From: a virus
Length of the DNA: 36,536 nt
IMG/VR virus record: IMGVR_UViG_3300044641_005635
Coordinates: 1-36,536 of that record
Direction: 5' to 3' (one strand)
The position numbers and the translations under genes were made by a program. The notes beneath the pieces are model-generated. The model did not search any database, had not been told where the DNA came from, and saw nothing but the letters and a program-made list of their open reading frames with translations. Below, piece after piece: positions 3 through 29,100 of this stretch. Numbering within the stretch: position 1 is the stretch's first letter; each line of letters begins with the position of its first letter.

Positions 3-2747
3 TCCTCAAAGATTTATAAAGTAATACAAGACCCTATTAAGGGTAAAATGTTACGCCCCGACACATTTATTCCATTTGCTTGGGTTGGTGACTTGAAAGG
101 TAAAAACTTTTACAAGAACGATAAACATGCACAAAAACGTGCGATGAGTGAAAATGGTATTATCATAGAAAGGCTTGATACTCACGGTGATGAACGTTTA
201 GAAAACGGATTAAAGTATTTGGTTAAAACAACCAAGTCATATTCCAATCTTGTAAACTTCTTTAAGGGTGGTGGATTAGACCCGTGGGGTAGAGACAACA
301 CAGACTCAATTCAAATATTATCACCTGTCGAACAATACTTAATTCAAAAAAGTAAAAGACTATTCAAAGGTTTTGATGAATACGATGAAATCCACAGGTT
401 TGTATTCGATATCGAGACCACAGGTCTTGACCCCAAAACAAGTAAGATATTCTTGATAGGGATGAAAGACAATCGTGGTTTTCTAAAATTATTATCGGCA
501 CAAAATGAAGATGAAGAACGACAAATGATTGTCGACTTCTTTAAGACTATTGATGAGTTAAAACCATCTTTGATTGGGGGTTACAACTCAGCATTCTTTG
601 ACTTCCCATTTATTTTGAAAAGAGCTGAGATATTAAAAGTTAACATCAAAAAAATCTGCAAGACCTTACATCCCGATTATACACTGAAACAAAAAGATGG
701 TATCCTAAAGTTAGCAAACGAAATGGAACCATACGTTCAGACTCAGATGTGGGGATATAATATTGTGGATATTGCCCATGCGGTTCGTAGAGCACAAGCA
801 ATCAACTCAGACATTAAGAGTTGGTCTTTGAAGTATATCACCAAATTTATTGAAGCAGAAAAACCAAATCGTGTTTATGTTGAAGGTGATAAGATTGGTA
901 AAATCTATTTCGATAATTTTGAATATTGGATGAACAAAGAAAACGGAGCTTACAAAAAAGTTGGGTTTGATTCAAAAATAGATGAGGTCTGTAAAAGAAG
1001 GGATGATGTTTATAAATTAGTTACAGGTTCAAAAATTATTGAAGACTACTTGGACGATGACCTTTATGAAACAATGGTGGTTGATGAGCAGTTTAACCAA
1101 GCGAACTTCTTGTTGTCTAAACTTGTACCAACAACTTATGAAAGACTTTCGACGATGGGAACCGCAACATTATGGAAAATGATTATGTCCGCATGGTCAT
1201 ATAAACATAATTTAGCGTTACCAAGAAAATTAGAAAAAAGAAAGTTTACGGGAGGTCTTTCTCGTTTGGTTCAGGTTGGGTTCTCTAAAAACGTATTGAA
1301 ACTTGACTACTCTTCACTGTACCCATCTATTCAGTTGGTTCACGATGTGTTTCCTGCTTGTGATGTAACAGGAGCGATGAAGAGTATGTTAAAGTATTTC
1401 CGTGATACACGTATTAAATACAAGAACTTAGCAAGTGAATATAAGTCTATTGACCCAAAACTTGCTATTTCTTATGACCGTAAACAATTACCAATTAAAA
1501 TCTTTATCAACGCATTCTTTGGTTCATTATCTGCACCACAAGTATTTCCGTGGGGAGACATCGATATGGGTGAACAGATTACTTGTACGGGTAGACAATA
1601 TCTAAGACAGATGATTATGTTTTTTATGAAAAGAGGTTATGTTCCACTTGTAATGGATACGGATGGTGTAAACTTTGAAACCCCGCAAGATAGAGAAGAG
1701 TATAAGTATATTGGAAAAGGGTTGAACGGTTTGGTTAAAGAAGGTAAGGAATATATTGGTGCGGAAGCCGATGTTGCTGAATACAATGATTTATTTTTAA
1801 GAGGTGAAATGGGATTAGATATTGATGGGGTTTGGCCCTCAACAATAAATGTGGCTCGTAAAAACTACGCACTTCTTACAGATAAGGGTAAAGTAAAACT
1901 TACAGGTAATAGTATTAAATCTAAAAAACTTCAAACATATGTTGCCGAATTTTTAGATAAAGGACTTCGAATGTTATTGGATGGTAAAGGTGGTGAGTTT
2001 TTAGATTTCTACTATGAGTATGTAGACAAACTCTATAACAGACAAATCCCTTTGGCTAAAATCGCAAACAAAGCTCGTGTTAAACAATCCATCGACGATT
2101 ATAAAGTTCACATTACAAAAACCACTAAGGCTGGTAATATGATGTCTCGTCAAGCCCATATGGAACTTTTAATTAAAGAAGGTAAAAATCCGGGTCTTGG
2201 TGACACAATCTTTTATGTTAATAATGGTGAAAAAAAATCACACGGAGATGTTCAAAAGAAAAAAGATGAATTAGTTTTAAATTGTTATTTGATTGATGAA
2301 CGTGACATAGAAATGAATCCAGACTTATTGGGTGAGTATAATGTTCCTAGATACTTGGCGGCGTTTAACAAAAGAATTGAACCATTACTTGTTGTTTATA
2401 GACCTGAAATTAGAGAAGACATTTTAATTGAGGACCCGAAAGATAGACCTATTTTTACTAAAACTCAAACTGAATTAGTACGTGGTTATCCCATGAAAGA
2501 AGCTCACCAAGATACGTTAGAAGAAGTATTAACGTTATCTGATACGGAATTAACGTTTTGGAAGAATGTGGGTATTGACCCTTACTATATGTATTTGGAC
2601 GGGACGGTTGATTTAGTAGATACTGAATGGGTTGAAAATAACAGAGTTTTAATGGAGAAATATGTTCAACAACAAAAGAAAGTAGATGCTGACGAATATT
2701 ATGAATTTGATGTTGATGGTGATTTGATGGCTCTTAGTTTCGACTAA
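3..2747 (+). CDS. 43: Family B DNA polymerase, T4 gp43-like (5' partial)
   Basis: Replicative DNA polymerase with 3'-5' proofreading. The frame is open back to the window edge (first codon at 3) and the sequence before the first Met (48) reads as coding, so the true start lies upstream. Numbering from Met48: Exo I FDIETTGLD (D121, E123), Exo II GGYNSAFFDFP (D185), possible Exo III YLDDD (334-338); Pol motif A LDYSSLYPS (D420), motif B KIFINAFFG (484-492), motif C MDTDG (D537, D539). All catalytic acidic residues are present, so the enzyme should be active. Two motifs deviate from the family: motif C is VMDTDG rather than YGDTDS, and motif B has NAFFG rather than NSLYG. The last four bases overlap the convergent minus-strand gene. 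Family assignment is secure; a strict T4 gp43 relationship is inferred from the other T4-type genes. Confidence 0.96.
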   Translation, partial: SSKIYKVIQDPIKGKMLRPDTFIPFAWVGDLKGKNFYKNDKHAQKRAMSENGIIIERLDTHGDERLENGLKYLVKTTKSYSNLVNFFKGGGLDPWGRDNTDSIQILSPVEQYLIQKSKRLFKGFDEYDEIHRFVFDIETTGLDPKTSKIFLIGMKDNRGFLKLLSAQNEDEERQMIVDFFKTIDELKPSLIGGYNSAFFDFPFILKRAEILKVNIKKICKTLHPDYTLKQKDGILKLANEMEPYVQTQMWGYNIVDIAHAVRRAQAINSDIKSWSLKYITKFIEAEKPNRVYVEGDKIGKIYFDNFEYWMNKENGAYKKVGFDSKIDEVCKRRDDVYKLVTGSKIIEDYLDDDLYETMVVDEQFNQANFLLSKLVPTTYERLSTMGTATLWKMIMSAWSYKHNLALPRKLEKRKFTGGLSRLVQVGFSKNVLKLDYSSLYPSIQLVHDVFPACDVTGAMKSMLKYFRDTRIKYKNLASEYKSIDPKLAISYDRKQLPIKIFINAFFGSLSAPQVFPWGDIDMGEQITCTGRQYLRQMIMFFMKRGYVPLVMDTDGVNFETPQDREEYKYIGKGLNGLVKEGKEYIGAEADVAEYNDLFLRGEMGLDIDGVWPSTINVARKNYALLTDKGKVKLTGNSIKSKKLQTYVAEFLDKGLRMLLDGKGGEFLDFYYEYVDKLYNRQIPLAKIANKARVKQSIDDYKVHITKTTKAGNMMSRQAHMELLIKEGKNPGLGDTIFYVNNGEKKSHGDVQKKKDELVLNCYLIDERDIEMNPDLLGEYNVPRYLAAFNKRIEPLLVVYRPEIREDILIEDPKDRPIFTKTQTELVRGYPMKEAHQDTLEEVLTLSDTELTFWKNVGIDPYYMYLDGTVDLVDTEWVENNRVLMEKYVQQQKKVDADEYYEFDVDGDLMALSFD

Positions 2748-3081: not shown

Positions 3082-4203
3082 TTAAATTACTGTGTATGGG
3101 CTTTGGAAGGCTCTTAACTTTAATAATTTGTTTAAGTTCTCCGCTTGTAAAGCCTTTTGTTCCATCATTTTTTCTGGACGTAATCTTTCAAGTCTTGCTT
3201 TAAGTTCTTCCCACAACATTGCCTTCTCATCTTTTGCTTCAGTTGCTAATGATGTATAATCCATTGTTAATTCAGAATCAGGTGTTTTAAGATTACCACT
3301 AAACTTACCTCTTACTCTACCTAAAGTTTCTTTACAATATGCAGTGAACCATCTTCTAACCCACGTTTGTGCAGGTGGATTAAGTTTATCCCATCTTAAT
3401 TTATCTAATGGAACATCAGAAGGAAGTCTAATAACGTCTGGGTTTTTAGCCAAACAATCTTCTCTATCGTAAGTATCATAATACCAATACCAAACTCGAT
3501 AGTCATTTCGTTTCATATTACCAAAATCAAACTTACCACCAGGTACATTCATCAAGTGAATTGCTTTTTTTCCTTCAGGTAATGCTGTAACTCTATATGT
3601 TAAATCACCTGTAATAATTCTTCTTTTCATTTGAATGTCTGCCATTCTTAAAAGAATGTCAAATGCTGGTGTAATAAAATAATTACCCGTTGTTCCCATT
3701 TGTGAAAAACCAGCACCACCACCTAAACCGATACCACCAAAACCTCCAAATCCACCCATGAATGGGTCAAAGTATGCTGCATCCAATTCAGGTCTTGCAA
3801 ACCATAACAATTCGTTAAGTTCACGTCCTGCAGGTATTTCATAAACTTGTTGGTTTGGTACTAAATCTATGTAATCTTTTTTCAATACCCAATCGCCACC
3901 AGCCTGTAAACCTACAATTTTTGAATAAGCGTAAGTGAATTGTGTTTCCCAATCCATACTACGAGTGGATAGTGCTCTTGTGATAGATTGTTCGTCAAGA
4001 TTTAATCCGTAAACCGATGTCCATTGTGATTCAATTAACCAATCTTGTACGTGTTGTTCATAATCTTCAATAGATAACTCCAATAGTGAGTCCATCATTT
4101 CGTCTTCAAGTTCTACTGAACGTAAAGGCGCCCCCAAAAGATTACGTATTCTTTTGTAAAGTTTACTTCTGTCGGGCTCATTTATGATTACAACGTTTGA
4201 CAT
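3082..4203 (-). CDS. Neck (head completion) protein, gp13-like
   Basis: A 373-residue protein. The N-terminal region (about 10-60) has the pattern I associate with T4-type gp13 neck proteins: a short helix, LLGAPLRSVELEDEMMDSLL, then a helix ending in a DYEQHVQDW segment. A beta region LVPNQQVYEIP near 115-125 leads into ELLWFARP. Gp13 helps close the filled head and provides the surface on which the tail docks. Odd features: a Gly/Phe-rich stretch (FMGGFGGFGGIGLGGGAGF, about 148-166) in the middle, and somewhat greater length than T4 gp13 (about 309 aa). It is on the opposite strand from the other tail genes. A TATTTATA element lies 11 bases before its ATG. It could instead be another connector protein; I consider gp13 the best fit. 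Confidence 0.6.
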   Translation of the reverse strand: MSNVVIINEPDRSKLYKRIRNLLGAPLRSVELEDEMMDSLLELSIEDYEQHVQDWLIESQWTSVYGLNLDEQSITRALSTRSMDWETQFTYAYSKIVGLQAGGDWVLKKDYIDLVPNQQVYEIPAGRELNELLWFARPELDAAYFDPFMGGFGGFGGIGLGGGAGFSQMGTTGNYFITPAFDILLRMADIQMKRRIITGDLTYRVTALPEGKKAIHLMNVPGGKFDFGNMKRNDYRVWYWYYDTYDREDCLAKNPDVIRLPSDVPLDKLRWDKLNPPAQTWVRRWFTAYCKETLGRVRGKFSGNLKTPDSELTMDYTSLATEAKDEKAMLWEELKARLERLRPEKMMEQKALQAENLNKLLKLRAFQSPYTVI

Positions 4204-4214
4204 AGATTTTTTAA

Positions 4215-4222
4215 TATAAATA
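4215..4222 (-). promoter_or_regulatory. TATTTATA element, candidate late promoter core
   Basis: On the minus strand the sequence reads GATATTTATATTAAAAAA, 11 bases before the ATG of the gp13-like gene. The same 8-mer in the same orientation precedes many structural genes in this window. Confidence 0.5.
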
Positions 4223-4240: not shown

Positions 4241-5329
4241 TTACGATTTTCTAATTTTTAACTGAGTAGTGTAAAGGTCATTCACAAACCCCCAATTAAC
4301 TACTTTCCAAAAATTTGAGATATATTCATCTCTTTTGTTTTTATATTTCAAGTAATAAGCATGTTCCCATAAATCTAAACCTAACAATGGGTAACCATTT
4401 TCTTTTTCAGTGTTCATTAAAGGATTATCTTGGTTGGATGTTGTAACAATTTTTAATCTATTATTTTTTGTTAAAATTAACCAAGCCCAACCAGAACCAA
4501 ATTTAGATTTAGATTCCTCACTAAATTGTTCTTTAAATTTTTCAAATGAACCAAAATCTTTTTTTATTTTTGAAAGTATTGGGTCTGAGATTTCTTGTTT
4601 TTTTGGAGATAACATTTTCCAAAACAATGCGTGGTTAAACGCACCACCACCATTATTTTTAACAGATTTGTTGAATCTTGAAATCTTTTCGATTATTTCT
4701 TCTAAATCTAAATCCTCCCCTTTAATTTTATCTAACTCATTATTTAATTTTTCAACATATCCCTTGTAATGTTTATTATAGTGAGTTTTCATTGTTTCAC
4801 CATCAATAAATTTTTCTAACGAATCAAAACCGTATGGAAGTTTTTCAATACTAATATTTTTTATTTCAGATATTATTGTTTCTTTTTTTGATGACTCAAC
4901 CTCTAATATAGACTCGATTTTTTCTATTTGTTCAGAAAAAGATTTATAGATAATCTTTTCCATATCTTTGTTGTTTTTTTCAAACTTTTTGATTTCTTGA
5001 GACGCCTGTGAACTTGCTTCATCCTCGTTTTTTCCACCAATATCCTTTCCTTTTTTTCTTTTCAAAACGGTTCTTTGATATTCGTGTGACCATTCGTGAG
5101 CTAATGTTCTTAACACATCACGGTTCAATCTATCTTTTACTAAAATTTTAAGTTTGTTTTTGTCAGTTCTTGAACCTGTAGTCATCGTACCTGTTCTTTT
5201 ATTTTGGAATACGATATCTAAATTATCCTTTAATGGGTAATTTTTTTTAAGTTGTGTAATAAAATCGTTGATTAAGACTTTATCACCTTTGCTAGATTCA
5301 ATTCCAATATATTCAACATTTACGTCCAT
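4241..5329 (-). CDS. HExxH metallopeptidase-like domain fused to Mn-type superoxide dismutase
   Basis: A 362-residue two-domain protein. Residues 1-112 carry a zinc-peptidase signature LAHEWSHEYQ (H78, E79, H82) followed by DEASSQA (E104), a plausible third metal ligand; this resembles small gluzincin-like phage domains. A Lys/Glu-rich, probably coiled-coil linker covers about 113-160. Residues 161-355 are a complete Fe/Mn superoxide dismutase starting at EKLPYGFDSLE. Metal ligands H183, H233, D319 and H323 are all present (MKTHYNKHY, FNHALFW, LDLWEHAYY), as are the gateway Tyr (Y191), GSGWAWL and VVNW. The second-sphere Gln is in NQDNPLM (Q300), the Mn-type position, and not before the second His as in Fe enzymes. 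The dismutase should convert superoxide to peroxide and oxygen. The TATTTATA element abuts its start, suggesting late expression. Peptidase activity is inference. Confidence 0.9.
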   Translation of the reverse strand: MDVNVEYIGIESSKGDKVLINDFITQLKKNYPLKDNLDIVFQNKRTGTMTTGSRTDKNKLKILVKDRLNRDVLRTLAHEWSHEYQRTVLKRKKGKDIGGKNEDEASSQASQEIKKFEKNNKDMEKIIYKSFSEQIEKIESILEVESSKKETIISEIKNISIEKLPYGFDSLEKFIDGETMKTHYNKHYKGYVEKLNNELDKIKGEDLDLEEIIEKISRFNKSVKNNGGGAFNHALFWKMLSPKKQEISDPILSKIKKDFGSFEKFKEQFSEESKSKFGSGWAWLILTKNNRLKIVTTSNQDNPLMNTEKENGYPLLGLDLWEHAYYLKYKNKRDEYISNFWKVVNWGFVNDLYTTQLKIRKS

Positions 5330-5333
5330 GATA

Positions 5334-5341
5334 TATAAATA
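5334..5341 (-). promoter_or_regulatory. TATTTATA element, candidate late promoter core
   Basis: The minus strand reads GATGATATTTATATATCATG with the ATG of the peptidase-dismutase gene only 4 bases after the 8-mer. If this is a -10-like promoter, the transcript would be leaderless or nearly so. Confidence 0.45.
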
Positions 5342-7105
5342 TCATCGGTTTCTAGAAATCATATTTAACATTTCTTCTATTACCGATGCTTCATCAAATG
5401 TATCATCACCCATCACAGTTGATATGATTTTTTTCTTTCTATTAAGGATGTCGTAAATAGCGCCTTCTATTGTGTTTTCAAATAGGGGGTAATAAACTGA
5501 TGTTGAATTTTTTTGTCCTATACGGTGTGACCTGTCTTCGGCTTGTGAATGTTCTGCAGGAACAAAAGATAAATCATTCATGATTACAGCTTCCGCTGAG
5601 GTTAAAGTAATACCAACACCTGCGGCTTTCAAGTTTCCAACAAATACTTTGATTTTATCGTTTGTTTGAAATTCATCAACCGCATTTTGTCTGTGGAACT
5701 TAGAACAACTACCATCTAAATAAACCGCAGATTTACCAAAGTGGTTATAGATTTGATTTAAAGTATCTGTAAAGTTTGTGAATATAATAACTTTTTTACC
5801 TTGCTCTATAATGTTTTCCGTTAACTCGATTGTGTTATTAATTTTTTCTTGTGCGATGACTTTTCTTACTTTCATTAATTTTGAAAACTGAATGGTAAGT
5901 GACGAAGACTCTTCAGGGTTTTGGTCATACCAATCAAAATATTCACCTACTAAATCTTCGTAATCTTTTGATTTGAGTCTCAAATAAACAGGAGTTATAA
6001 TTTTTTCAGGTAAGTCTAAAACGTCTTCTTTTAATCTTCTTAAGATATGTGTTGAGGTTCTTTCTCTTAATTCTTCAAGATTAGATGCTCCCGTAACGTT
6101 CCATACCTTTCTTTTTCCCACACTAAATTGGAATCCATTACAATATCTTTTAGCATATGCCATCCAATTCATAGCTACGGGGCTATCAACAAGGTTTAAT
6201 AAATTGTAATAATTCATAGGTCGTGAAGTCATCGGCGTTCCAGATAATAACCAAACTCTATTTGATTTACTTGCGATATCGTTGGCAATTTTTGTTCTTT
6301 GTGCCTGCGGGTTAGAAATCATATGGGCTTCATCCATGATAACCAAATCAAAATTAATTTTCATAATTTCTGATTTTTCTTTGTCCTTTGTATCATGGAA
6401 ATTTTTTAAGATGTCATAATTTACAATAACAAAATCATGTTCATCTGAAAATTTCTTACCTTCTGCGATATATACAGTTCTATCTGAATAATTTGCAATC
6501 TCTCTTTGCCAGTTTATTTTCAAAGATGCTGGACACACAATCAAAACTTTTTTGGCACCTGTTTCTAAAGCTGCAATGATGGTTGATGTGGTCTTACCAA
6601 GACCCATGTCATCAGCCAGAATAAACTTTTTATTTTTTACAAGTTTTTCAATTGCTTCTTTTTGATGTTCCATAGGTGGTCTATGGGTGTATTTGTCATA
6701 ATCAATAGAAATGTTTTTAACTTCATTATCTTTTAATAATGCCGATTTTGGCATCCAAAAGTCGTGTAAAGTTTCTCCCGAAAAGATTTTACCCCATATA
6801 TGATAAGCTTTATCCTTTTCAACCAACAACTTCTCAACATAAATTTCTGAAGGTTCTTTGGTATACATTTTATCTTCCATCAGTTTTTTACCAAAATATG
6901 AATCTAACTTGACCCATTTTTTTGCGACTTTTGGTTGTAGGGTATGATAATTATTTATGTAATCGGCCTGAGGTCTCGTAGGAACAAAAGACTTACTATT
7001 TTGTTTTTTGTGTTTTAAGTTAAGGATATAGTTATTTGACCCTTCATAATCGTCTAATATTAAAAGGGCTTTTGATTCGGGTGTTTTAGGCACAAAATCT
7101 TCCAT
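5342..7105 (-). CDS. SNF2-family DEAH-box helicase / ATP-dependent translocase
   Basis: A 587-residue superfamily 2 enzyme. Motifs in order: Q-like MEHQKEAI (145-152), Walker A DDMGLGKTTS (165-174), motif Ia VLIVCPASL, Walker B/II DEAH (258-261), motif III SGTP (289-292), then the second RecA lobe with VIIFTNFTDT, GVGITLTSA, and motif VI QAEDRSHRIGQ (about 521-531), the SNF2/SMARCAL1-type signature. The N-terminal 140 residues are an accessory region of unknown fold. It probably remodels forks or moves on duplex DNA during replication or recombination, a role played in T4 by UvsW, though the motifs are SNF2-like. I place the start at 7105 (MEDFVPKTP); a longer frame to 7375 runs antisense through the next gene and its extra residues look non-coding. 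It sits among structural genes next to the dismutase fusion, possibly as an inserted block. Confidence 0.93.
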   Translation of the reverse strand: MEDFVPKTPESKALLILDDYEGSNNYILNLKHKKQNSKSFVPTRPQADYINNYHTLQPKVAKKWVKLDSYFGKKLMEDKMYTKEPSEIYVEKLLVEKDKAYHIWGKIFSGETLHDFWMPKSALLKDNEVKNISIDYDKYTHRPPMEHQKEAIEKLVKNKKFILADDMGLGKTTSTIIAALETGAKKVLIVCPASLKINWQREIANYSDRTVYIAEGKKFSDEHDFVIVNYDILKNFHDTKDKEKSEIMKINFDLVIMDEAHMISNPQAQRTKIANDIASKSNRVWLLSGTPMTSRPMNYYNLLNLVDSPVAMNWMAYAKRYCNGFQFSVGKRKVWNVTGASNLEELRERTSTHILRRLKEDVLDLPEKIITPVYLRLKSKDYEDLVGEYFDWYDQNPEESSSLTIQFSKLMKVRKVIAQEKINNTIELTENIIEQGKKVIIFTNFTDTLNQIYNHFGKSAVYLDGSCSKFHRQNAVDEFQTNDKIKVFVGNLKAAGVGITLTSAEAVIMNDLSFVPAEHSQAEDRSHRIGQKNSTSVYYPLFENTIEGAIYDILNRKKKIISTVMGDDTFDEASVIEEMLNMISRNR

Positions 7106-7149
7106 GATATAATAAAATATAATAAACATCCATAAAAAATCAATTAAAG

Positions 7150-7157
7150 TATTTATA
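7150..7157 (+). promoter_or_regulatory. TATTTATA element, candidate late promoter core
   Basis: AAAGTATTTATAGGTATG: the 8-mer ends 3 bases before the ATG at 7161. Read on the other strand it is TATAAATA, the T4 late promoter sequence, facing the helicase gene at 7105. Since the other copies in the window face the gene as TATTTATA, I assign it to the plus-strand gene. Confidence 0.4.
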
Positions 7158-7160
7158 GGT

Positions 7161-7676
7161 ATGGCAGATAATAGAGTTCCGATAACCAGACTAAATAAGT
7201 TTTTTTCTGAAGAAGACTTTAACTTAGATATTTCTATGGGTGATGAATGGTTAGGTGGGGATATGAATTTTACCCTTGTTTTATACCGTATTGATAGACA
7301 AAGAACTATTAGTGATGATGTGTACGGTGAGACCTTAGAAGATGGAATACAGTTTTTACCTCCCGTTGAATTCAAGGGATATGTACAAATTGAAGCTCCT
7401 TCTAATGTTGATTATGGTTCCGCTAAATTATCACAAACAGAACCAGGTAATTTGAAAGTTGGCGTTTATCAAAAACAATTAGAGGAATTAGGTATTGATA
7501 TAAACTATGGTGATTATATTGGGTATTACGAAGACGAAACAAGAGTTAGATATTATAGTGTTGTAGATGACGGTCGTGTATTTTCTGATAACAAACATAC
7601 ATACGGTGGTTACAAGGCTTTCTACCGTTCTGTTATTGCGGCACCAGTAACCGATAACGAATTTAGAGGAATATAA
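7161..7676 (+). CDS. Probable neck / head-tail connector protein (gp14-like)
   Basis: A 171-residue protein. The centre and C-terminus contain a pattern I associate with T4-type neck proteins: a segment predicting a helix (VGVYQKQLEELGIDI) followed by NYGDYIGYYED and a beta strand RVRYYSVVDDGRVF, then a conserved-looking tail YKAFYRSVIAAPV. In T4, gp14 joins gp13 to complete the neck before tail attachment. Support is weak at the sequence level and relies on order: it is followed 1 base later by a probable gp15-like protein and then the tail sheath. The start at 7161 is preceded almost directly by a TATTTATA element, with no Shine-Dalgarno sequence. Confidence 0.5.
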   Translation: MADNRVPITRLNKFFSEEDFNLDISMGDEWLGGDMNFTLVLYRIDRQRTISDDVYGETLEDGIQFLPPVEFKGYVQIEAPSNVDYGSAKLSQTEPGNLKVGVYQKQLEELGIDINYGDYIGYYEDETRVRYYSVVDDGRVFSDNKHTYGGYKAFYRSVIAAPVTDNEFRGI

Positions 7677-8961: not shown

Positions 8962-8969
8962 TATTTATA
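8962..8969 (+). promoter_or_regulatory. TATTTATA element upstream of tail sheath
   Basis: GATGTATTTATATATAAAAAATAAATTC: the 8-mer ends 35 bases before the sheath ATG and is followed by an A-rich leader with no Shine-Dalgarno sequence. The sheath should be among the most strongly expressed late genes, so this is one of the best candidates for a real late promoter. Confidence 0.55.
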
Positions 8970-16773: not shown

Positions 16774-19700
16774 ATGGAGAGTCCACTATCATTTAATTCA
16801 AGTGAAAATTTTAGAAAAAAGCTTTTGGTGCGAAATCTTCCACCATATAAGGTCGATAATGCTTTTTCTAATGAAAGTAAACCTGGTTCTTCTGAATTTA
16901 CTTTTAATGACCTCAGCACTGTAGACTCACCTAGTGTAGAACAAATTGGGGACAAACAAGAAAAATTATTATTACCCATAAATCAATACGGGCCACAAAC
17001 ACCAAATAAAGATTATGGTAGTGTTGTAACAATAAATGATAACCAAAATTATAAAACAAACGAAGGTGAGTATGGTTATCCTGATACTATTGGTAGTGAT
17101 TTAGAAACTATTGGTAATAATACTGAAAAACAAATTATTATAAAAAATGTTTATAGACCTGAAAACGGATTATCTGATTTTGGTTCTACAGCGTGGTATA
17201 TAAACAATGATAAAGTAATCACAACTATTGGTGAAGGTGAATATACAGTACAAGACACAGTTGGAAGTGGTTTAGAAACTACGGCAAACACAGATAGACC
17301 AACATTAATTACTAATAATCAATATGGACCACAAACACTATCAAATGTTGAAGTTTCAATAAATAATAACTTTCAGACTAACGCAAACGAAGGTGAATAC
17401 GGATTTCCTGATACTGTTGATAGCCCATTAGAAATAAAAGGGGAATCTGATAGACCTGCATTGATTGCTATAAATCAATACGGACCTCAAAATTTACCAA
17501 CAACTGAAGTATTAATTAATAATAATTTACAAACAAATTCAAATGAAGGGGAATATGGTTATCCTGATACAGTAGATAGTGAATTACAAATTGTAGGTGA
17601 AGACATAAGAAAACCAAATTTTTTACAAAATCCGTGGGGACCTGAACAGGGTCAAAGTGAGGTTGAAGTTGAACCTTACAGGAAACAAAAAAATTTAGTA
17701 ATACCACAGGGAAATTATTTAGATGAGACCGATACCTACGGTAACGAATTAGAATTCAAAGCGGGTGTCAAAGAAACTGAGGCTTACTTATCAAATAGAT
17801 ATGCGACTGGAGAAGGTTTTTACGACCCGACGGACTTTAAGAATTTTCAATTAGAGGCTCTTCAATTACCATATGCCAATTCTGATAATACATTTATATT
17901 TTTACCATCAACCTACACACCTTATAGTATTTTATTAGAAGATAACCCGTCAGGTTCTGATGGTACTTTGTCTGAGGATTCTGATTTAGCCATGATTGGT
18001 GCTAAAAGTTTGAACAAAGAATTCAAACACAGAGTTGCGTTAGAACTTTACCAACAAACTTTAGGTCAAGTAAATATATTTAATTCTAACGTAGACCCCC
18101 TTACTGGTGAAATTTCGGCAAAACCAAATACGGACCCTTTTGATGCAATTGGATTACTTACAGGAAATATTCCTATCGTATCAAGAGTTTACAACATTAC
18201 AACACCCGACTTCTTATTTGGTCAAGGAATTAATTTTGCGGCTAAGTTAGCCGGATTATACTCACCATATTCTTACATACCTGGTGAATATTTTGATTAT
18301 CCTGACCGAATAATCAATGGACCATATGTTAACCCATTATCTATAATTGGTGGAGCTATAGGTTCTTTATTTAGTGTCCTACAAGGTGCAAATCAATCAT
18401 CTTCTGAGTTGATGTTAGAATACACATCAGTTCCTACTAGAAAGTTATTATATGACCAATTAAAATACAATCAGTATAGACCAAATTATAAAATTGGTAA
18501 TAACCTAACAGCACCTCAAGGTGTATTTTATATTGGTGAAAGAAAAAATCATCTTACAGAATTATTATCCCCGGCGGGAGAACTCCCTCAAAATAAAGAT
18601 AGAACTGGCTCATCTATTGGACCTGTACAATCTTATTCAAAAATGGGTAAACTTTATGAGACGGACCAACTTGATGATACATTATTTGGTATAAATAGTA
18701 GAAACTTTTATAGTGCTGGTAGTACGAAAGATGGTTGTAATCTTATTGGTAGTAGTGTTTTTGGTGGGTTTACATGGGTTGGAAGTAAAAATCCTGAAGA
18801 AATTAATAACCCAAAACCAGGTGCTTTACAAGGTAGGGGTGGAGAACAATTTGAAGACACTAGCGAATTTAAGTTTGGACAACTTACTGATTTTGGAAAA
18901 AGTGAGTCCACAAGATACAATTTTACACCAGGGTCAATCTTAGATGTAACACAAAAGTTAATAGATGCTGGACAAAGAAAATCTGTCCAAAATCCGAAAG
19001 AACACGTAGGTAATGCTATTAATCAAATTACCAAAGTATTCAATGATGGTTATCAAGAAATTACTAAGGGTTCTAAAACATTGAGATGGACAACTAAAAA
19101 TTCAACAGGAGGAGGACAAGTCCAAGGTTTAGAATATTGTAGAGTTTTTACAAAGGATAGACCATATTATACATTTGATGAGTTACAAAAAACGGATGGT
19201 AATATTAGAAAGTTTACTTCATCAGTATTAGATAGTACTTACAACTTAAATATAGCACCTGTCGAAGGTAGTAGTTTGAGAGACGGTAGGGTTAAAAAAT
19301 ATATGTTCTCTCTTGAGAACTTAGCTTGGGGTAGTTCAAATAAAAAAGGTTACACTTATGATGATTTACCGGCATGTGAAAAAGGACCAAATGGAGGTAG
19401 AATTATGTGGTTCCCCCCTTATGAGTTATCATTTGATGAAAGTATATCAACATCATGGCAAGATAATAACTTTTTAGGTCGTACAGAACCAATATATACA
19501 TATACTAATACATCAAGAAAGGGTAACGTATCCTTCAAAATAATAGTTGACCATCCATCAATATTAAACTTATTGGTTGATGAGGAATTAAAAGATATAA
19601 GTGATGGTAACGAAATAACACAAATTATTGATTCATTTTTTGCTGGATGTACTAAATACGATTTATGGGATTTAGTATCTAAGTTTCCTAATTTTACACC

Positions 19701-22700
19701 AAGTGACATATTTCAAGCACAAATTCTTACACAAGAAGATTTAGTAACGGTTGTAGAACAAAATAGCTACACTACAATACAACAAAATATAGATATTGGC
19801 GGACAAGTTGAAACCACACCAAAAGCTTCAGACTGTGTTGTATTTCATTATGAAATTGGTTTAAATACCAATTTGGAGTATACTGCTTGTAGTGGTAACC
19901 AACAAATATTAACTTTAAGTGCTGGTGACAAGGGTGATATATGTGTTAAACGAGGAACCACACCAAATATAGTAACCCCCGACCCATCAAATATTGTAAC
20001 ACCAACAGGACAAGATTGTGAACTTAATCCTTCGAGCGGACAGACACAAACAACACCTAATGAAACACCAAAACCCACAAATATTTCATTCCCTGATATT
20101 GGTTTTTACTTTGATAACGATTATCCAATAGGTAAAAATACTAGAGTGGATACTGTAGGTGAAAACGAAGACTTTGAATTTTGGTATAAAAAATACATTA
20201 ACTCTGAAAGTTGTTACTTAAACGGTGGTTGTGAAAATCAAGATTACCAAAAGGCATTAGATAAAATAATCCAATATGGTGACGCACAAAAAACAGATGT
20301 TACAAATTATGTTTTAGGTTTAGATAAAGCCGCACAAGACAAATATCTTGATAGTTTTATTGATACAAGAAAAAGTGAAATTTCTGAATTTTTTAAATTC
20401 ATTAAATCGGAATTTGATGAGGCTAAAAAATTCATTGAAACTATAGGACCATTAATGGCCGATGGAAACACCGTTAAATTTAGTTTGGGGTCTAGTGCAT
20501 CTTCGGTAAGTGATAACGGTTATAATTTACACCTTTCAAAAAGAAGACTTGATTCAGTAATTAAGTGGTTAAAAAAACAATCTTATGATGGTACTAAATT
20601 TGATAAATTCATACAACAAGGAAAATTAGTTATTACGTCTGCAACACCTTCAGGTGAAACTGCAACTATTGACGAATTATATTATAAACAAATCAACTGT
20701 AGTAAACCATTCAAGACTAGTGATGCTGAAGGAACCGTTTCGGTAAACGCCATGGCTTGTAGGAGAACTAAAATTTTTAACGTAGATGTAGTAAAAAATA
20801 ATTCAGAAAACGAGAATGGCGACCAACAACCAAGCAATACTCAAGTAAATCAAGAAACCGCTGGACAAGATTTTACTATTAATGGTCAGAGTAATATAAC
20901 ACCAACCACCACCACTTCACAACAACCAAATACGTCCACAAACCCTTTTGTTAATCAACAACCTGATTCAGACCCTAATACTGTAACACCACCTAACACT
21001 AGAGAACAAGTGGTAAATAGACAAGAAAGACAAACATATAAAGACTTAACTAAACGTTTGGCTAGAAAATTATTAACAGAATGTAACTATTTTGAATATT
21101 TGGAAAGAACAAATCCTATGATTTATGACGGAATAAAATCCAAAATAAAATATTTTCAACCCGCTTTCCACTCTATTACACCTGAAGGATTAAATTCCAG
21201 ACTGGTTTTCCTACAACAATGTATGAGACCTGGTGATACAATACCTACCGTTTCTACAACAGGTCAAGGACAAGAACAATTAATATATAATGATGTTTCA
21301 AATAGTGCGTTTGGGGCACCTCCTATCTGTGTTCTTAGAATTGGTGACTTCTTCAATACTAAAATAGCAATCGACCAAATATCATTAAAATATGATGACG
21401 GTAAATTTGATTTGAATCCTGAAGGTATCGGTATCCAACCTATGATAGCAACAGTAAGTATATCTTTTAGTTTCATTGGTGCTCATGGTTTAGCGGGACC
21501 TGTAGCTAAGTTACAAAATGCATTATCATTTAATTACTATGCTAATACTGAAATGTATGACGAACGTGCTGAATCTACAGAAACTTTAGACCAATTAGAA
21601 ACATACGATAGACAGATTTTAGACCAAGTAGAAGAACAAGTAGGTGTCGTAGACACCTCAGCTCCAAGACCTGAAATAAATAATGGAGGTGTTACTATCG
21701 GTAAAACTTTAACAAATGTATTAAACATAGATACATCCGTTACTACAGGTACAATTGAATATAAAGATATTTTTAGTAATTTAGTAGACGGTACAAAAAA
21801 TTATGCAGATAAGGTAACAACAACTTTAGAAAAAATTAATGAAGAATTTTTATTTGGTGGGTTACAAATCTTTACTAAAGATAGAAAATATACTGAGGGT
21901 AACTTTAATTATTTAGGTGGTAATATGACGGATACTGCAACTATTTTCGGTTACTCAGATAAGATTCAAACAAAAATGGACAATTTGGCAACAGAAGCTA
22001 AAACTGATGTTGATGATGGAACGACTCCATTACTTGTTGGTATTGGTGATGAGAATTTATCTGAGGTAGAAATAAGAAAAGTTAAAAGACAAATTAAAAA
22101 AGACATAGATTCTAAAAAAGATAAAATGTTGAATTCACTACAAAACTATTCAAACGAGATAACAAATACAGAATTGAATTACATCAATTTGATTGATAAA
22201 ATAAATTATGTGTCTAACGGTAACGATGGGTTTATAAAGAAAAATAATTCAACAATCATTTATAATTTATCTGGTACAACAGAAGTAACTCAACCAACAC
22301 TAACAGGAGTGAATAATACTTTACAAGAATTGATTGAAGATTCACTTTTAATTAAAAATGATTTGAATGATGTGAATCTAAAGTTAATTGAGTTTAGTTT
22401 GATACCAACAGGTAACTATGATTATAGTGAAAACTATACGCAGGATATGTATTTTAGTTCACCGCAACCACCAAATAAGGTTGTATATTTTATGTTGTTT
22501 GGAAAAGAAATAATAGACGACCCGAATAAGTTTGCTGAAAACTTAATATTAAATGCAATACCTGATATTAGTGATGAATCAAAAACTAATTGGATGACTT
22601 GGCTTATGACTACACTTACAGGTGCTAATGGGCTTGTTGACATATACAAATCATCAAAAACGACAGTTGATAAAAAAATATCTGATTATAAAACAACTTT

Positions 22701-22872
22701 TTATAATCCATTATTTAATACTTACAAGACTTCACTTAAGGGTAAAGTAAGAAAAATGTGGTACGAATCACAATTAACACCAACAGAAAAAACCATCGAA
22801 GACTTAAAAATTATTTATTCTAATAAAAGTCCAAAAGGGGATAAATTTAACTTACAAAAATCATTTAAGTAA
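16774..22872 (+). CDS. Giant baseplate protein with N-terminal repeats and OmpA-like domain
   Basis: A 2032-residue protein. Regions: residues 48 to about 330 are six copies of a 52-57-residue repeat; about 350-760 is a unique structural region; about 878-936 has MWFPPYELSFDES followed by TYTNTSRKGNVSFKIIVDHP, a tube/baseplate-like beta unit; about 1104-1345 is OmpA-like (FYFDNDYP start, NLHLSKRRLDSVIKWL, and CRRTKIFNVDVV end) with a helical insertion; about 1515-1595 holds a second beta unit (VLRIGDFFNTKIAIDQISL ... QPMIATVSISFSFIGAHG); the C-terminal 400 residues are mostly helical. No signal peptide or membrane segment. It lies between the tape measure and a gp53/LysM-like protein, so it is most likely a fused hub/tube-initiator baseplate component. 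I cannot match it to one T4 gene; T4 gp48/gp54-like parts are possible. Its stop overlaps the next ATG (TAATG). Confidence 0.85.
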   Translation: MESPLSFNSSENFRKKLLVRNLPPYKVDNAFSNESKPGSSEFTFNDLSTVDSPSVEQIGDKQEKLLLPINQYGPQTPNKDYGSVVTINDNQNYKTNEGEYGYPDTIGSDLETIGNNTEKQIIIKNVYRPENGLSDFGSTAWYINNDKVITTIGEGEYTVQDTVGSGLETTANTDRPTLITNNQYGPQTLSNVEVSINNNFQTNANEGEYGFPDTVDSPLEIKGESDRPALIAINQYGPQNLPTTEVLINNNLQTNSNEGEYGYPDTVDSELQIVGEDIRKPNFLQNPWGPEQGQSEVEVEPYRKQKNLVIPQGNYLDETDTYGNELEFKAGVKETEAYLSNRYATGEGFYDPTDFKNFQLEALQLPYANSDNTFIFLPSTYTPYSILLEDNPSGSDGTLSEDSDLAMIGAKSLNKEFKHRVALELYQQTLGQVNIFNSNVDPLTGEISAKPNTDPFDAIGLLTGNIPIVSRVYNITTPDFLFGQGINFAAKLAGLYSPYSYIPGEYFDYPDRIINGPYVNPLSIIGGAIGSLFSVLQGANQSSSELMLEYTSVPTRKLLYDQLKYNQYRPNYKIGNNLTAPQGVFYIGERKNHLTELLSPAGELPQNKDRTGSSIGPVQSYSKMGKLYETDQLDDTLFGINSRNFYSAGSTKDGCNLIGSSVFGGFTWVGSKNPEEINNPKPGALQGRGGEQFEDTSEFKFGQLTDFGKSESTRYNFTPGSILDVTQKLIDAGQRKSVQNPKEHVGNAINQITKVFNDGYQEITKGSKTLRWTTKNSTGGGQVQGLEYCRVFTKDRPYYTFDELQKTDGNIRKFTSSVLDSTYNLNIAPVEGSSLRDGRVKKYMFSLENLAWGSSNKKGYTYDDLPACEKGPNGGRIMWFPPYELSFDESISTSWQDNNFLGRTEPIYTYTNTSRKGNVSFKIIVDHPSILNLLVDEELKDISDGNEITQIIDSFFAGCTKYDLWDLVSKFPNFTPSDIFQAQILTQEDLVTVVEQNSYTTIQQNIDIGGQVETTPKASDCVVFHYEIGLNTNLEYTACSGNQQILTLSAGDKGDICVKRGTTPNIVTPDPSNIVTPTGQDCELNPSSGQTQTTPNETPKPTNISFPDIGFYFDNDYPIGKNTRVDTVGENEDFEFWYKKYINSESCYLNGGCENQDYQKALDKIIQYGDAQKTDVTNYVLGLDKAAQDKYLDSFIDTRKSEISEFFKFIKSEFDEAKKFIETIGPLMADGNTVKFSLGSSASSVSDNGYNLHLSKRRLDSVIKWLKKQSYDGTKFDKFIQQGKLVITSATPSGETATIDELYYKQINCSKPFKTSDAEGTVSVNAMACRRTKIFNVDVVKNNSENENGDQQPSNTQVNQETAGQDFTINGQSNITPTTTTSQQPNTSTNPFVNQQPDSDPNTVTPPNTREQVVNRQERQTYKDLTKRLARKLLTECNYFEYLERTNPMIYDGIKSKIKYFQPAFHSITPEGLNSRLVFLQQCMRPGDTIPTVSTTGQGQEQLIYNDVSNSAFGAPPICVLRIGDFFNTKIAIDQISLKYDDGKFDLNPEGIGIQPMIATVSISFSFIGAHGLAGPVAKLQNALSFNYYANTEMYDERAESTETLDQLETYDRQILDQVEEQVGVVDTSAPRPEINNGGVTIGKTLTNVLNIDTSVTTGTIEYKDIFSNLVDGTKNYADKVTTTLEKINEEFLFGGLQIFTKDRKYTEGNFNYLGGNMTDTATIFGYSDKIQTKMDNLATEAKTDVDDGTTPLLVGIGDENLSEVEIRKVKRQIKKDIDSKKDKMLNSLQNYSNEITNTELNYINLIDKINYVSNGNDGFIKKNNSTIIYNLSGTTEVTQPTLTGVNNTLQELIEDSLLIKNDLNDVNLKLIEFSLIPTGNYDYSENYTQDMYFSSPQPPNKVVYFMLFGKEIIDDPNKFAENLILNAIPDISDESKTNWMTWLMTTLTGANGLVDIYKSSKTTVDKKISDYKTTFYNPLFNTYKTSLKGKVRKMWYESQLTPTEKTIEDLKIIYSNKSPKGDKFNLQKSFK
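16915..17763 (+). repeat. Six in-frame 52-57-residue protein repeats
   Basis: The unit reads roughly D-T-V-D-S-x-L-E-x-x-G, a charged step, N-Q-Y-G-P-Q, E-V-x-I-N-N-N, then N-E-G-E-Y-G-Y-P. Unit starts are near residues 48, 104, 161, 213, 265 and 320 of the 2032-aa protein (nt about 16915, 17083, 17254, 17410, 17566, 17731). Copies 4 and 5 are the closest pair; the last is degenerate. DNA copies have drifted, especially at third codon positions, so the repeats are maintained at protein level. Confidence 0.85.
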
Positions 22873-23189
22873 TGGACTATTATAATAGATACAAAGATTT
22901 TTTAATAAACGGACAACAAACCGTAGTACCCTTTTTATCCATACCTTCAAGGGTTACGGACCAACAATATCTTTATCGAACAGGTAGAAGTAGATTGGAC
23001 AAAATTAGTTTTGAAAAATATGGTACACCATATTTTGGTTGGTTAATACTGGCTGCAAACGCATCTTTTGGTGGATTAGAACAAAATATACCTGATGGTA
23101 CTATTTTAATTATACCTTATCCGCTAACTGCAGCATTACAAGACTACAAATCCGCATTGGATACCTATATATTTTATTATGGCCGCTAG
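22872..23189 (+). CDS. Small baseplate protein with LysM-like segment, gp53-like
   Basis: A 105-residue protein. The central part, RLDKISFEKYGTPYFGWLIL then AANASFGGLEQNIPDGTILIIP, matches the LysM-like 'D-x-I-A-x-x-x-Y-G-x-x-x-x-W-x-I-L-x-x-N' pattern found in T4 gp53 and in small tail X-type proteins that link the baseplate wedge to the hub. Unusually short for T4 gp53 (196 aa), so it may hold only the core domain. Start by one-base overlap with the preceding giant gene and an 11-base overlap with the following one make this a tightly coupled trio. Confidence 0.72.
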   Translation: MDYYNRYKDFLINGQQTVVPFLSIPSRVTDQQYLYRTGRSRLDKISFEKYGTPYFGWLILAANASFGGLEQNIPDGTILIIPYPLTAALQDYKSALDTYIFYYGR

Positions 23190-26100
23190 ACAAAAACAAA
23201 ATAAAAAAATTTATATTGAAACTGATTATGATAACATCGTAATTGTAAACCCAAATGAAGTTTATAATTCAGATGGAAAGAAAGAGGAACGTCTTGTTGA
23301 CCACGAAGAATTGGTCTATTATGCTAATTTAGAAACTTTTATAATCCCAAGAACAAAATTAGCAATTGGAGAAGCTTTCCCAACCATAGAAAATACAACA
23401 AGTATTGCCACTCTATTTAGTGGCGATGATGCTTTGAAAGTTAATTTTTTAAAACCAAGAGGTAAAACTGAATTTGATACAAGTTGGTCAAAACAATTAA
23501 CAGGTGAGGGTTCAAGAGATGGTTTAGGTATTAATCAAAGTGCGGAACGAGTTGCTTCTGTTGACGGTAGGCAAGTGTTTAGACGTTCGGTAAGAAACTA
23601 CGAAGATACACAACTTTTAGGTATTAAATCAATTAGAGTAGCAATAAAGGCGTCAGGTGTTCCTGAAGTTAATATTGAAATGGTTGATATACAAGGAAGG
23701 TCTTTATTCGAGCAAGGAGAAAATTCGTTGTATTCTGCTTTTTTTAATTTTCCTTACCCGTTGTTTTATTTAACACTTAAAGGTTATTATGGTAAAGCCG
23801 TTAGATATAGACTTTCTTTAATGTCTTTTAATGCTACTTTCGATGCCGACACAGGTAATTACAATATTTCTTTGAAACTTGTTGGTAAGTTTACAGCATT
23901 ACTTTTTGATACCCCTTTGTCTTACGCGGTAAACGCACCTAAGATGTATAACACTCAAATAACGGTTACAGAACCTAATGGGAATAAAAGTTTTTTTAAC
24001 ACATATAAAGGAAGACAAAAGTTAAATGAGGTATATGACATATATGAAAGAAAGGGATTAATACCACCAAACTTTCCGAGATATTCCTTGGAAGAATTTA
24101 AATATAAGGTTGAAAAATTTACAACGGATTTTCAAAATGATTTAAAGGCAAAGACAGACTTTACAAAGTTAAATGATTTAGAAGACTTCTCAGAAAACTT
24201 AAAAAAACTTAATAAGGAAGTTTATGAGTATGCTATTAATAATGTTGTAGATAGAAATAGTTTTTATGTTCAGGGTGATGAAGTTTATTATCCATTTAAA
24301 AAAGAATTGACTTTTCAATCGAGAGAAGACTTCAAAACCAAAATATCAGAAAGAATAAATGCTTATGTTGCAAATTTAAAAAACAACGCCACGTTTGGTG
24401 AAAATAAAAATGCTGAGTATCAAATTAACGTAACCATAAAAGGTATAAAAGATATTCTTAGAAAACTTGATTTTAATACTTGGAGTAGTAATAAACAAGA
24501 TGTTACTAATACATACTTTTATAGAAACAATAGACCACTCGATTCGAATATTAATCCTGGTGAATATGAAAAATTCTTAAAAGACGAGCAAATTATTGCA
24601 CTTTTAGATACTAAAGTTAAAAACGAAAAGGGGGAGTGGGTTGAAGAACTTCCTGACTATTTAGTATTTGGCGATAAAATAGTTGCTGACGGTACATATT
24701 CTAGAAATTCATATTTAGATAAATTAGATGTGATGTTCACTAGTTTAAGTGCTAAACAAAAAATAATTGAAGATGAATTAACACAATATTATATTGGTAA
24801 ACAATTGAGTAATCCGTTAGAAGGTGGATTGGGATTTAAACCAACGATAAGAAATGTGTTTGCAATTATTTTAGCAGGTGCTGACGCATTTTATAGACTA
24901 ATGGATGAAAATCATGAAGAGGCATGGAATGTCAGAACTGATAAAAATCGTTTATTAGCTGTAATTCCGTCAGACAAAAATTTTTCAGTTGATGCATTAA
25001 AATCAATACAAACGTCTAGTACTAACTTGAATAGTGATAATGTTGTATATCCGTGGCCATTATATTTTACATTAGAAAAACAAGATAATGGAAGTGACTT
25101 ATATACGATACAATATCCTGGTGACGCTAAATATATAGGACAGACAAGGGCTTATGATTATAGAGTGTGGCCTGAAGTTGGTTTTGTAGAAGCATTTATA
25201 AAAGCAACATTAGAAAAATCAAAACCAGAAGTAAGATATTCTTATGACAACCCTAAGGATGTAACAAAATATGTATCATGTAATGCTATTGAATTTCCAT
25301 TCAAAACGGCACCTTACCAAGATTTAGATGCCATCAAAACCTTTTATGAAATTTTTGAAAGAACTTATATCGCATCACATTATGGTAATTTACCATCGGA
25401 TATTGCAAGTAGTAAACAAATCGACCAATTTTATGGTGATATAGAAAGTCTTAATATTAGTTTAGTGGCTCCATCCGATATTACAATAAATCAAACCTTA
25501 AAGAACTCAGCATTTAATTTAAGTAAACTTGTCGATTACATGAAAACAATTTCAAATAATGGACAAGGACAAAGTTGGCAAACATATATAAGAGATTACT
25601 TTAACACAGATTATCTTAAAACTCTTTTAGCTAATGTTAATGAAATATATTCAATAGACACCTTAGCTGGAGCATCAATACAAGTTTCGGCGGACTTACC
25701 ATTAGCACCAAACATGAAAGAATTTTTAGAAGATAGTGCAACCTCTAAACAAAAAAAATTAGATGTTTACCCCTTCACCAATGTAGATTGGTTAAAAAAA
25801 TATATGTCTAATGGTGAAAGTATTGGTTCATATGAGGACTATAACAATACAACTAGAAGTTATATATTCTTGGACGATAAAAAAACCATAGCAAGAATTA
25901 ATGCGACTGAAAAGTATGAAAATTTAAAACTTTTTACATCTAATGCTGTGTTTCAAAATAACACACAACCACTTTTAGTTGACCCATCAAGTGATGACCC
26001 AATTGATTCGGCACTTTCTTTGAAAGAATATTATAATAGAAGGCAATATGAAGATTTGTTTTTAACTGAGTCATTTATTGATTACGGTAATAGTTATAGT

Positions 26101-29100
26101 GGTAATTTAGGAACATTCATTCAAACAACGTCGTTGATGAATACGCCTTATTTTGTTAATGCAATATTGGATGGTGTACAAAAACAAAAAAACAACGAGG
26201 AAAATCCATACGCAGCTTTAGGTTATATGTACCTAAACTCTTTACCTCTAATTACAACAAAAGAAAAAATTAAAGATGTTACAAACGATGTTGTAACTGA
26301 CCTTGACTATTTGGCGGCAACATTCAATAAGTTTTCATCTATTCATCAGGTACCATATGCTTGGGTTTTGAAGTACGGTTCAATATGGCATAGATATAAA
26401 ACATATATTGAAAAAAATATTGATATTTTAGAAGATACGTGGAAAGATTTTGACTATGTATTTTCTTATGACCCAACAACAGGAAGTTCAAGTACTAAGT
26501 ATACTATATTAGATTATAGTGGAAACCCAACCACAATCTCTCTTCAAAATGTTGAATTATATACACCAGCATTTAACGTGTTCAACCTAAAAGAGACTTA
26601 TGATACAGGATTTTATCCAAAAGTTATTAATTCTATTGAATATTACCTGAATGGAAAAGATTTAATAACTGGTTATACACCTACTGATTTTAGTAAACTT
26701 TATACTGAACAAGGATTAAAAATTGGATTTAACCCAACTAACGAGGTTTATTATTTCCCACAAGGTTATGACGCAAGTAATCCAAATAAAGAATTATTAA
26801 AAAGAAATTTATTTACTTATAGAAAATATAAGAAAAATAATGTCGACTCAGAACCATCAACAATCATTATGTACCCTTCTATGGGAGGGATACCTTTTGA
26901 CCAAGCAATTTATGAGTGTTTTAATCCTCAGAAAAAAATAACGGAAAGTTTGTATAATAATAATTCCATGTATAATGGAACGGTACGTTCGGTTTGGGGT
27001 ATGTCCCAATTTGGATATTTTAATAATAAATTAATTAAAAAACCATTACCTACTGAATACCTTAAAATAATTAAAACAAATACAGACAAACAAAATGTTT
27101 TTGATATAACTAACACTGAGTCAACTTATTCAATGATTGATGAGATATTCAGTGTCTTTGATGTTGCTTTGTTGGATAAAATGGAAGAAAAGTTTTTAAC
27201 TTTTTGTAAGTACAAACCATTGGCTGATGAGTTAAAATTAAATGATGAAAACATCACGCCAAACTACCTTCAAACAAATGGGTTAACTAATGCGAATTTA
27301 AAATTACTTAAAAATCAAATTCAAAATCTTTTCTCATATCAAACCATATTCTTTCAACAAGTTAATGAAACTATTGATACACAAACATTAATGAACGACC
27401 AAATTAGTAACCTTTATACAAATTTGAGAGAATTTTTGAATTTTGATTGTGTCCTTAAGATAGGTAACCCTACAAATTTCGATAGAAAATTGTTTGATTC
27501 ATTAAGTACACTTAGTAATATGCAGACTGAGGATAAATTAACCTTTGGTAAATATGTTTCTGGTTCATTACCAGGTGACGGCACACTTACAACATTATTA
27601 CAAAGTACTACGTCATTACCACAATCATGGTCAACATTACACAAATATTTAGGGTTTAGTTTAATACCTGGAGTTGATTACGAAAACCAAGTCAATAACG
27701 CGTTCCCTTCAGTACCTAACCCAACATCAGCAACGACCGCAACAACTACAAACGCAAACTCAGAAATACAATTACAATATATAGGTAGTTCATATAATAT
27801 CATCACTACACCAACAAATGATAGTGAGTATATACATATTGAAAAAACAACAAGTGGTTACGATGTTTTCAAAATTATAGGAGAACCCGATAAATCAAAA
27901 ATATCACAAAGATTACAATCTATAAGTTTTTATCAACCAAACTCAAATGTACAAGATAGTAGTAATATAGTACAAAGTGAGTTTACTATGAACGCTCAAA
28001 CAAAGTATCAATATGTTGCGAAAATAATTCAAGCCCAACCTGGTAAATATCAAATGGTAGTGACGTATGCACCAAACTTACCTACGTCACCTGAGACATT
28101 ACTATTAATTGCTGATGTATCAACCTCACCTAATTTTTCATCAACAATACCACAAAATAATAATGTTTCAATTACTCCACTGGCGTTGGCAAACACACAA
28201 AAATGTCTTGTATCAGATTTCTTCATTCAAAATAATATTGCATTTAATCCTCAAAACATAAGAACACTTTATCCAATAATAAGAATTTATGTTGAGCAAA
28301 AATTAAAAGACCCTACTTTTAATAAAAACAAACTAATCACATATATTAATGATTTCCTTACAGATAGGTACGAACTACAGGATAAAATGGTAAATCAGAC
28401 TTTTACAAAGTTAAATAAGATATTAAAGAAAATTGAAGTCGATTATGGCTTACCAACCACACCTATGAATGGTGATACAACCAAGTTAGCCCTTTATAAT
28501 ACGTTAAAAGGTTTTAATGATAAATGGATTTCAGGTTCAGATTTGAAAAGTGTTACGTTGTTTGAAGACTTTTTATTTATGGATAGGTCAAACAGTGATT
28601 TAGGTAATTCTTATAATGTAGATTTGAATAAAGTGGTAAATAGACTTGCTTTAGATACGAAGCAAGACCAAAGTTTAATGTCTTTAATAAGTTCAATTTT
28701 AGAAGATAATTATTTTATTTTTATGGCGATGCCTGCCTATATTAATTTTTACGGTATCCAAAAAGCTTTAAAAGGTGGTCAACCATTAGAGGATAGTGAA
28801 ATTGGTAATTCATTGTTTGGGACTTATTTAGAAGTGGATTACACACAATCTAACCCTAAATTTTTGTGTCTATATGTTGGTAACCCATCTGAATACCCGA
28901 AACCAAAAGAAAACTCATTTAATAGATTTGGTGACGATAGTTTTGATTTAAGAGTTCCGGATAACCCATTAAGAGTTTCTGACCCTAATAGAAATTATTC
29001 ACTGAGTAATCGTGTAGTTGGATTTGCTGTTGATTTTGGAATAAGAAATCAAAACATCTTCAAAGGATTAAATTTAGATATGTCTGAAATGAAAAACACT

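Follow-up and report, generated by a model that had tools for sequence, protein, structure and literature searches.

On the minus strand of the window, a 36,536-nt stretch of viral DNA, a single intact gene was found to fuse a small zincin domain of the HExxH type, via a linker, to a complete superoxide dismutase (SOD) of the Mn type; related genes occupied the same locus in a widespread group of phages. With a probability of about 0.55, the best explanation is that these genes specify a late, head-packaged cargo polyprotein that is processed by a gp21-type protease like the internal proteins of T4, with SOD as its commonest module. The constant core of such a protein would be a leader followed by an intact Mn-type SOD, to which the zincin may be added as an optional extra module.

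Domain composition of the fusion protein

The fusion ORF (nt 4241–5329, minus strand, ATG at 5329) predicted a protein of 362 aa and was a single uninterrupted frame, as described in the first-pass annotation. Three parts were distinguished: the zincin domain (residues ~1–118, nt 4976–5329), a linker (residues 119–158, nt 4856–4975) whose homologue in relatives without the zincin is their N-terminal leader, and the SOD (residues ~159–356, nt 4262–4855). A complete Mn-type SOD had been proposed at residues 161–355, and this was confirmed by matches far above the Pfam cut-offs, Sod_Fe_N at residues 161–241 (E = 8e-22, 77.9 bits versus a cut-off of 27) and Sod_Fe_C at residues 250–350 (E = 3e-41, 140 bits versus 20.9), as well as by alignment of residues 161–354 to the Mn/Fe SODs of S. 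aureus among PDB sequences (E = 2.5e-60). The four metal ligands (H183, H233, D319, and H323), the gateway Y191, and the Mn-type Q300 were located where they had been predicted; all were invariant in an alignment of 56 diverse sequences, in which no ligand was lost, and the SOD residues were unchanged in every architecture. Q300 presumably points to a preference for Mn.

The same fusion, for which a search in other phage genomes had been suggested, was present in all 80 relatives fetched, which shared 54% to 91% identity. That two genes were joined artificially by an assembly or frame error is practically impossible, considering that the same frame was found in hundreds of independent contigs and that dN/dS was below 0.2 in all three parts. 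In the window clade, dN/dS was 0.15 for the zincin, 0.17 for the linker, and 0.09 for the SOD; the values for the two domains indicate that both are under purifying selection.

For the N-terminal domain, a confident AlphaFold model (residues 1–128, pLDDT 93) was obtained, and the top ranks in VIA-align were zincins, M30 lugdulysin (Z 9.9) and M1 ERAP2 (Z 9.8), with further zincin matches to YbeY-like 1oz9 (Z 9.5) and Wss1 (Z 8.6). Plain Foldseek returned no match with E < 0.001 for this model, and the alignment of the domain gave no significant match to PDB sequences. The fold shared with these metallopeptidases extended over the whole domain and included HExxH, whereas the phage domain was minimal (~118 aa), had low sequence identity to them, and belonged to no significant Pfam family. 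The HEWSH at residues 78–82 (nt 5084–5098, minus strand) was present as previously noted and, together with E102, would form the zinc site. H78, E79, H82, and E102 were invariant in 57 sequences, whereas E104, which had been proposed as the acidic partner, was conserved in at least 90% of them but not in all; judged from this alignment, the third ligand is more likely E102 (HExxH-x19-E) than E104.

The zincin fold, the invariant HExxH and E102, and the dN/dS of 0.15 would also be in line with the zincin being the working part, which matures the polyprotein or cleaves a host protein while the SOD serves it. We regard this as very improbable, since many orthologues without the zincin retain the leader, the motif preceding the SOD, and the SOD itself, and since exactly the zincin is missing in one relative (L556); in comparison with L018, the start codon of L556 is followed directly by the leader, the domain being cleanly absent, and the sequences on either side are 93% and 91% identical. 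These observations argue that the zincin is an optional module, and the anchoring or processing role suggested earlier for the N-terminal domain fits poorly with the many same-locus orthologues lacking it and with its clean absence between such similar flanks.

Distribution and relationship to bacterial SODs

In IMG/VR, the number of viral contigs with relatives of the fusion ORF was at least 565. When only the zincin was used as query, 172 relatives were obtained, and SOD followed the zincin in every fetched contig long enough to tell. In contrast, when 84,980 genomes of bacteria and archaea were scanned, the best 80 matches covered the SOD and none of them covered the zincin. When 34 phage SODs and 36 bacterial ones, the latter chosen by similarity, were placed in one tree, the phage SODs formed one group with a support of 100/100, within which at least three changes are needed to account for the presence and absence of the zincin. 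Matches in an annotated phage collection were confined to the SOD portion and shared less than 60% identity. One record of that collection with an annotated SOD, MW462191.1, had neighbours of bacterial type (aminotransferase, transpeptidase, and efflux genes) and looks like a bacterial contig.

The SOD-carrying group is a widespread lineage of uncultured tailed phages, and the fusion, far from being peculiar to one phage, represents one architecture among several that occur at this variable cargo locus. The family B DNA polymerase of the window (nt 48–2747, plus strand) had its closest annotated homologues in Salinibacter and Nostoc/Anabaena phages, with an identity of only ~25%, indicating that this group is distant from the annotated phages in the collection compared.

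A variable locus between the helicase and neck genes

The fusion gene was bordered on one side by a neck-like gene (nt 3082–4203, minus strand, 373 aa), similar over ~60 aa only to phrog_211, head-tail adaptor Ad2 (E = 2.5e-10), and on the other by an SNF2-type helicase gene (nt 5342–7375, minus strand). The order SNF2 helicase, cargo gene, neck gene was kept in nearly all fetched relatives, with the neck gene directly downstream of the cargo gene, and the contents of the locus varied among SOD alone, SOD with unrelated C-terminal modules, modules without SOD, and none. The 79 loci retrieved via the window's neck gene comprised 51 with zincin-SOD and 28 with SOD lacking the zincin; another 79, retrieved via a more distant neck gene, comprised 46 with SOD and 33 with tail modules without SOD. 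On the 281-kb contig G018, whose neck protein was 82% identical, the helicase gene directly adjoined the neck gene, leaving the locus empty, and no SOD match was found on this contig. In two other contigs (G011 and G012), a leader of the SOD type was fused straight to one of the tail modules, family E. What stays constant at the locus is a leader followed by cargo, and the zincin is optional.

In many relatives, 60 to 380 additional aa followed the SOD. Four families of these tails (A to D) were mutually dissimilar at the cut-off used, and E was a further one. The tails had no significant match in Pfam and PHROGs, nor did their alignments match PDB sequences significantly. Tails B and E were homologous (hhalign probability 94) and shared a PD-(D/E)xK-like motif, G-x-D...Q-x-K, from which both may be nucleases; neither profile nor fold comparison confirmed this identity, and one tail-B homologue had a weak match to the MjaI restriction enzyme (E = 0.005, below the cut-off). 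Tail A retained the motifs K-x-D...E-x-K; its assignment as a nuclease by fold was rejected, since its model (pLDDT 87) had no PDB match (best VIA Z 4.5; best Foldseek E ~1). The extra 340 to 380 aa in some relatives did not represent a fused neck gene, which was present separately. In L319, L325, L326, and L329, the N-terminal fusion partner of tail A was another domain, which contained a hydrophobic segment and, internally, a stretch resembling the leader.

That the cargo gene always adjoins a neck-like gene would be expected of a structural protein associated with the neck or connector, one that remains attached to the head-tail junction alongside the neighbouring neck product and has SOD activity as a secondary property. 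However, the neck gene was kept where the locus was empty or lacked SOD, indicating that the neck does not need the cargo protein, and such a role appears remote. The exchange of modules behind a common leader, with the clean absence of the zincin in L556, argues instead for head-packaged cargo. More tentatively, the helicase-neck site of this T4-type lineage may be an exchange locus for head-packaged polyproteins, in which a leader is combined with interchangeable SOD, zincin, PD-(D/E)xK-like, and other modules that the prohead protease would separate inside the capsid, so that several enzymes, most often SOD, could be injected with the DNA.

Late-type element upstream of the fusion gene

The element TATTTATA, which the first-pass annotation had placed at the start of the gene, was located at nt 5334–5341 (minus strand) and ended 4 nt ahead of the ATG. 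Further copies lay in sense orientation before the neck-like gene (nt 4215–4222, minus strand) and before structural genes including those for sheath and tube (nt 8962, 13404, and 14924, plus strand). In four related contigs, sense copies of TATTTATA upstream of genes outnumbered those of its reverse complement 2.2- to 3-fold and, by analogy with T4, the element may serve this phage group as a late promoter. TATTTAT preceded 71 of 113 zincin-less SOD genes, a count that is weak on its own because the same sequence preceded 292 of 733 other ORFs near the locus. Adjacent to baseplate genes of the window, two giant ORFs (nt 16774–22872 and 23179–30162, plus strand; 2032 and 2327 aa) were observed that had no match in PHROGs.

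Cleavage-like motifs and the prohead protease

The prohead protease gp21 of T4 cleaves behind L/I-X-E to remove propeptides 7 to 65 residues long from the N terminus, and internal proteins are drawn into the head by a capsid-targeting sequence, many of them being ejected later (PMC9026906, PMC3012670). Just before the SOD of the window, a motif of the form (I/L/V)-x-E, I153-S-E155/I156 (nt 4862–4873, minus strand), is a candidate site for such a protease. [ILV]-x-E directly preceded the SOD in 241 of 242 distinct relatives, many of them close to one another (132/132 zincin-bearing and 109/110 zincin-less sequences), and in the nonredundant sets it was found in 41 of 42 leaders and 44 of 44 linkers; E155 was invariant in the 56 diverse sequences. 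In zincin-less forms, the motif ended the N-terminal leader, which is probably helical as judged by eye and measured 28 to 49 aa to the KLPY of the SOD, or roughly 20 to 40 aa to the Glu, whereas in the window form it was internal. The junctions between SOD and tails possessed [LI]-x-E-[SN] in 32 of 42 nonredundant cases, compared with 5.6% of control stretches taken from these proteins and 9.7% of shuffled junctions. No such enrichment was found in the zincin/SOD linker (11/44 versus 21% of shuffles), where the sole conserved cut-like motif was the fixed one just before the SOD.

A gp21 homologue (Peptidase_S77) was encoded by 13 of 23 distinct related contigs (6/10 and 8/14, with one contig common to both sets), including G007, which also encodes a fusion of 87% identity. 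Its gene belonged to a head module that also contained the genes for terminase, portal, and the major head protein. The genes richest in the motif adjoined the gp21-type protease in related phages, and the major head protein kept copies near residues 42, 49, and 58; both observations support the same gp21 specificity. Many small proteins of contigs G001 (L166–L181) and G003 (L182–L195) began with MK-I-I-[IL]-[ST]-E-x-Q, soon followed by L/I-x-E; this start, also found where tail A stands alone and in a tail-B homologue, looks from its sequence like a second capsid-targeting leader.

By analogy with T4, the polyprotein would be made late and the leader would pull the cargo into the prohead, as the capsid-targeting sequence does. 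The gp21-type protease may then cut after (I/L/V)-x-E ahead of the SOD, giving an SOD of normal length, and relatives with C-terminal modules would be cut a second time behind it at (L/I)-x-E/S/N. Inside the head, free SOD may safeguard the packaged DNA; alternatively, ejection along with this DNA would allow it to reduce superoxide in the cell just infected. Packaging in the head is favoured by the motif preceding the SOD, its counterpart at the tail junctions, and the gp21 gene in larger related contigs, together with the late-type element, the neck neighbour, and the T4 precedent (PMC9026906, PMC3012670); the earlier proposal of late expression and possible packaging thus gained support. 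Evidence against it includes the atypical residue that follows the Glu ahead of the SOD, mostly M or I compared with S, N, or A behind most head-gene motifs, the lack of [LI]xE[SN] enrichment in the zincin/SOD linker, and the internal position of the leader in the window, which itself contains neither head genes nor a tail module. In addition, no gp21 match was found in G005, G008, G009, and others, all possibly incomplete contigs.

The main rival is a soluble auxiliary SOD, made late and kept unpackaged in the cytoplasm until lysis, in which the leader would act as a structural helix and folding or dimer contacts would account for the conserved Glu motif. It would agree with the invariance of the SOD residues in all architectures, the atypical residue after the Glu, and the ordinary protective function of superoxide dismutase. 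It is nevertheless rather unlikely, as it leaves unexplained both the (L/I)-x-E/S/N at junctions with unrelated tails and the leader ahead of the SOD-less tail E.

Comparison with known systems and implications

SODs and T4-type internal proteins are both already known kinds. Bacterial Fe/Mn SODs of the SodA/SodM type possess the same two Pfam domains, four ligands, gateway Tyr, and Mn-type Gln, but the phage SOD lies inside a multidomain protein with a leader, a cut-like motif, and optional modules and forms its own group in the tree. The likeness to the T4 internal proteins (IPI-III and Alt) consists of a T4-type head module, a gp21 homologue, and a leader ending in L/I-x-E with variable cargo behind it, whereas the phage cargo is a conserved metabolic enzyme, often with several modules per chain; the leader is likened to the capsid-targeting sequence by role, not by sequence homology. 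The Cu/Zn SOD of chlorovirus PBCV-1 (A245R) is a late gene product packaged in the virion, an example of a large DNA virus that packages an SOD of another family (PMC7019647). That enzyme belongs to an unrelated SOD family of an algal virus, and no fusion is mentioned in the account used here (PMC7019647), so that the two are compared only in how they may work. The literature searched contained no description of a modular phage polyprotein that is apparently segmented by a protease and includes an SOD module, although subscription papers may contain one.

The locus offers natural comparisons with and without the zincin, the SOD, and the tails, as well as an empty site. If the head-packaged cargo reading is true, the phage particle would bring a ready antioxidant enzyme, and superoxide would matter at infection or in the survival of the particle. 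The cargo of T4-type heads could then be a modular polyprotein, and candidate injected enzymes would be readable between the cut motifs.
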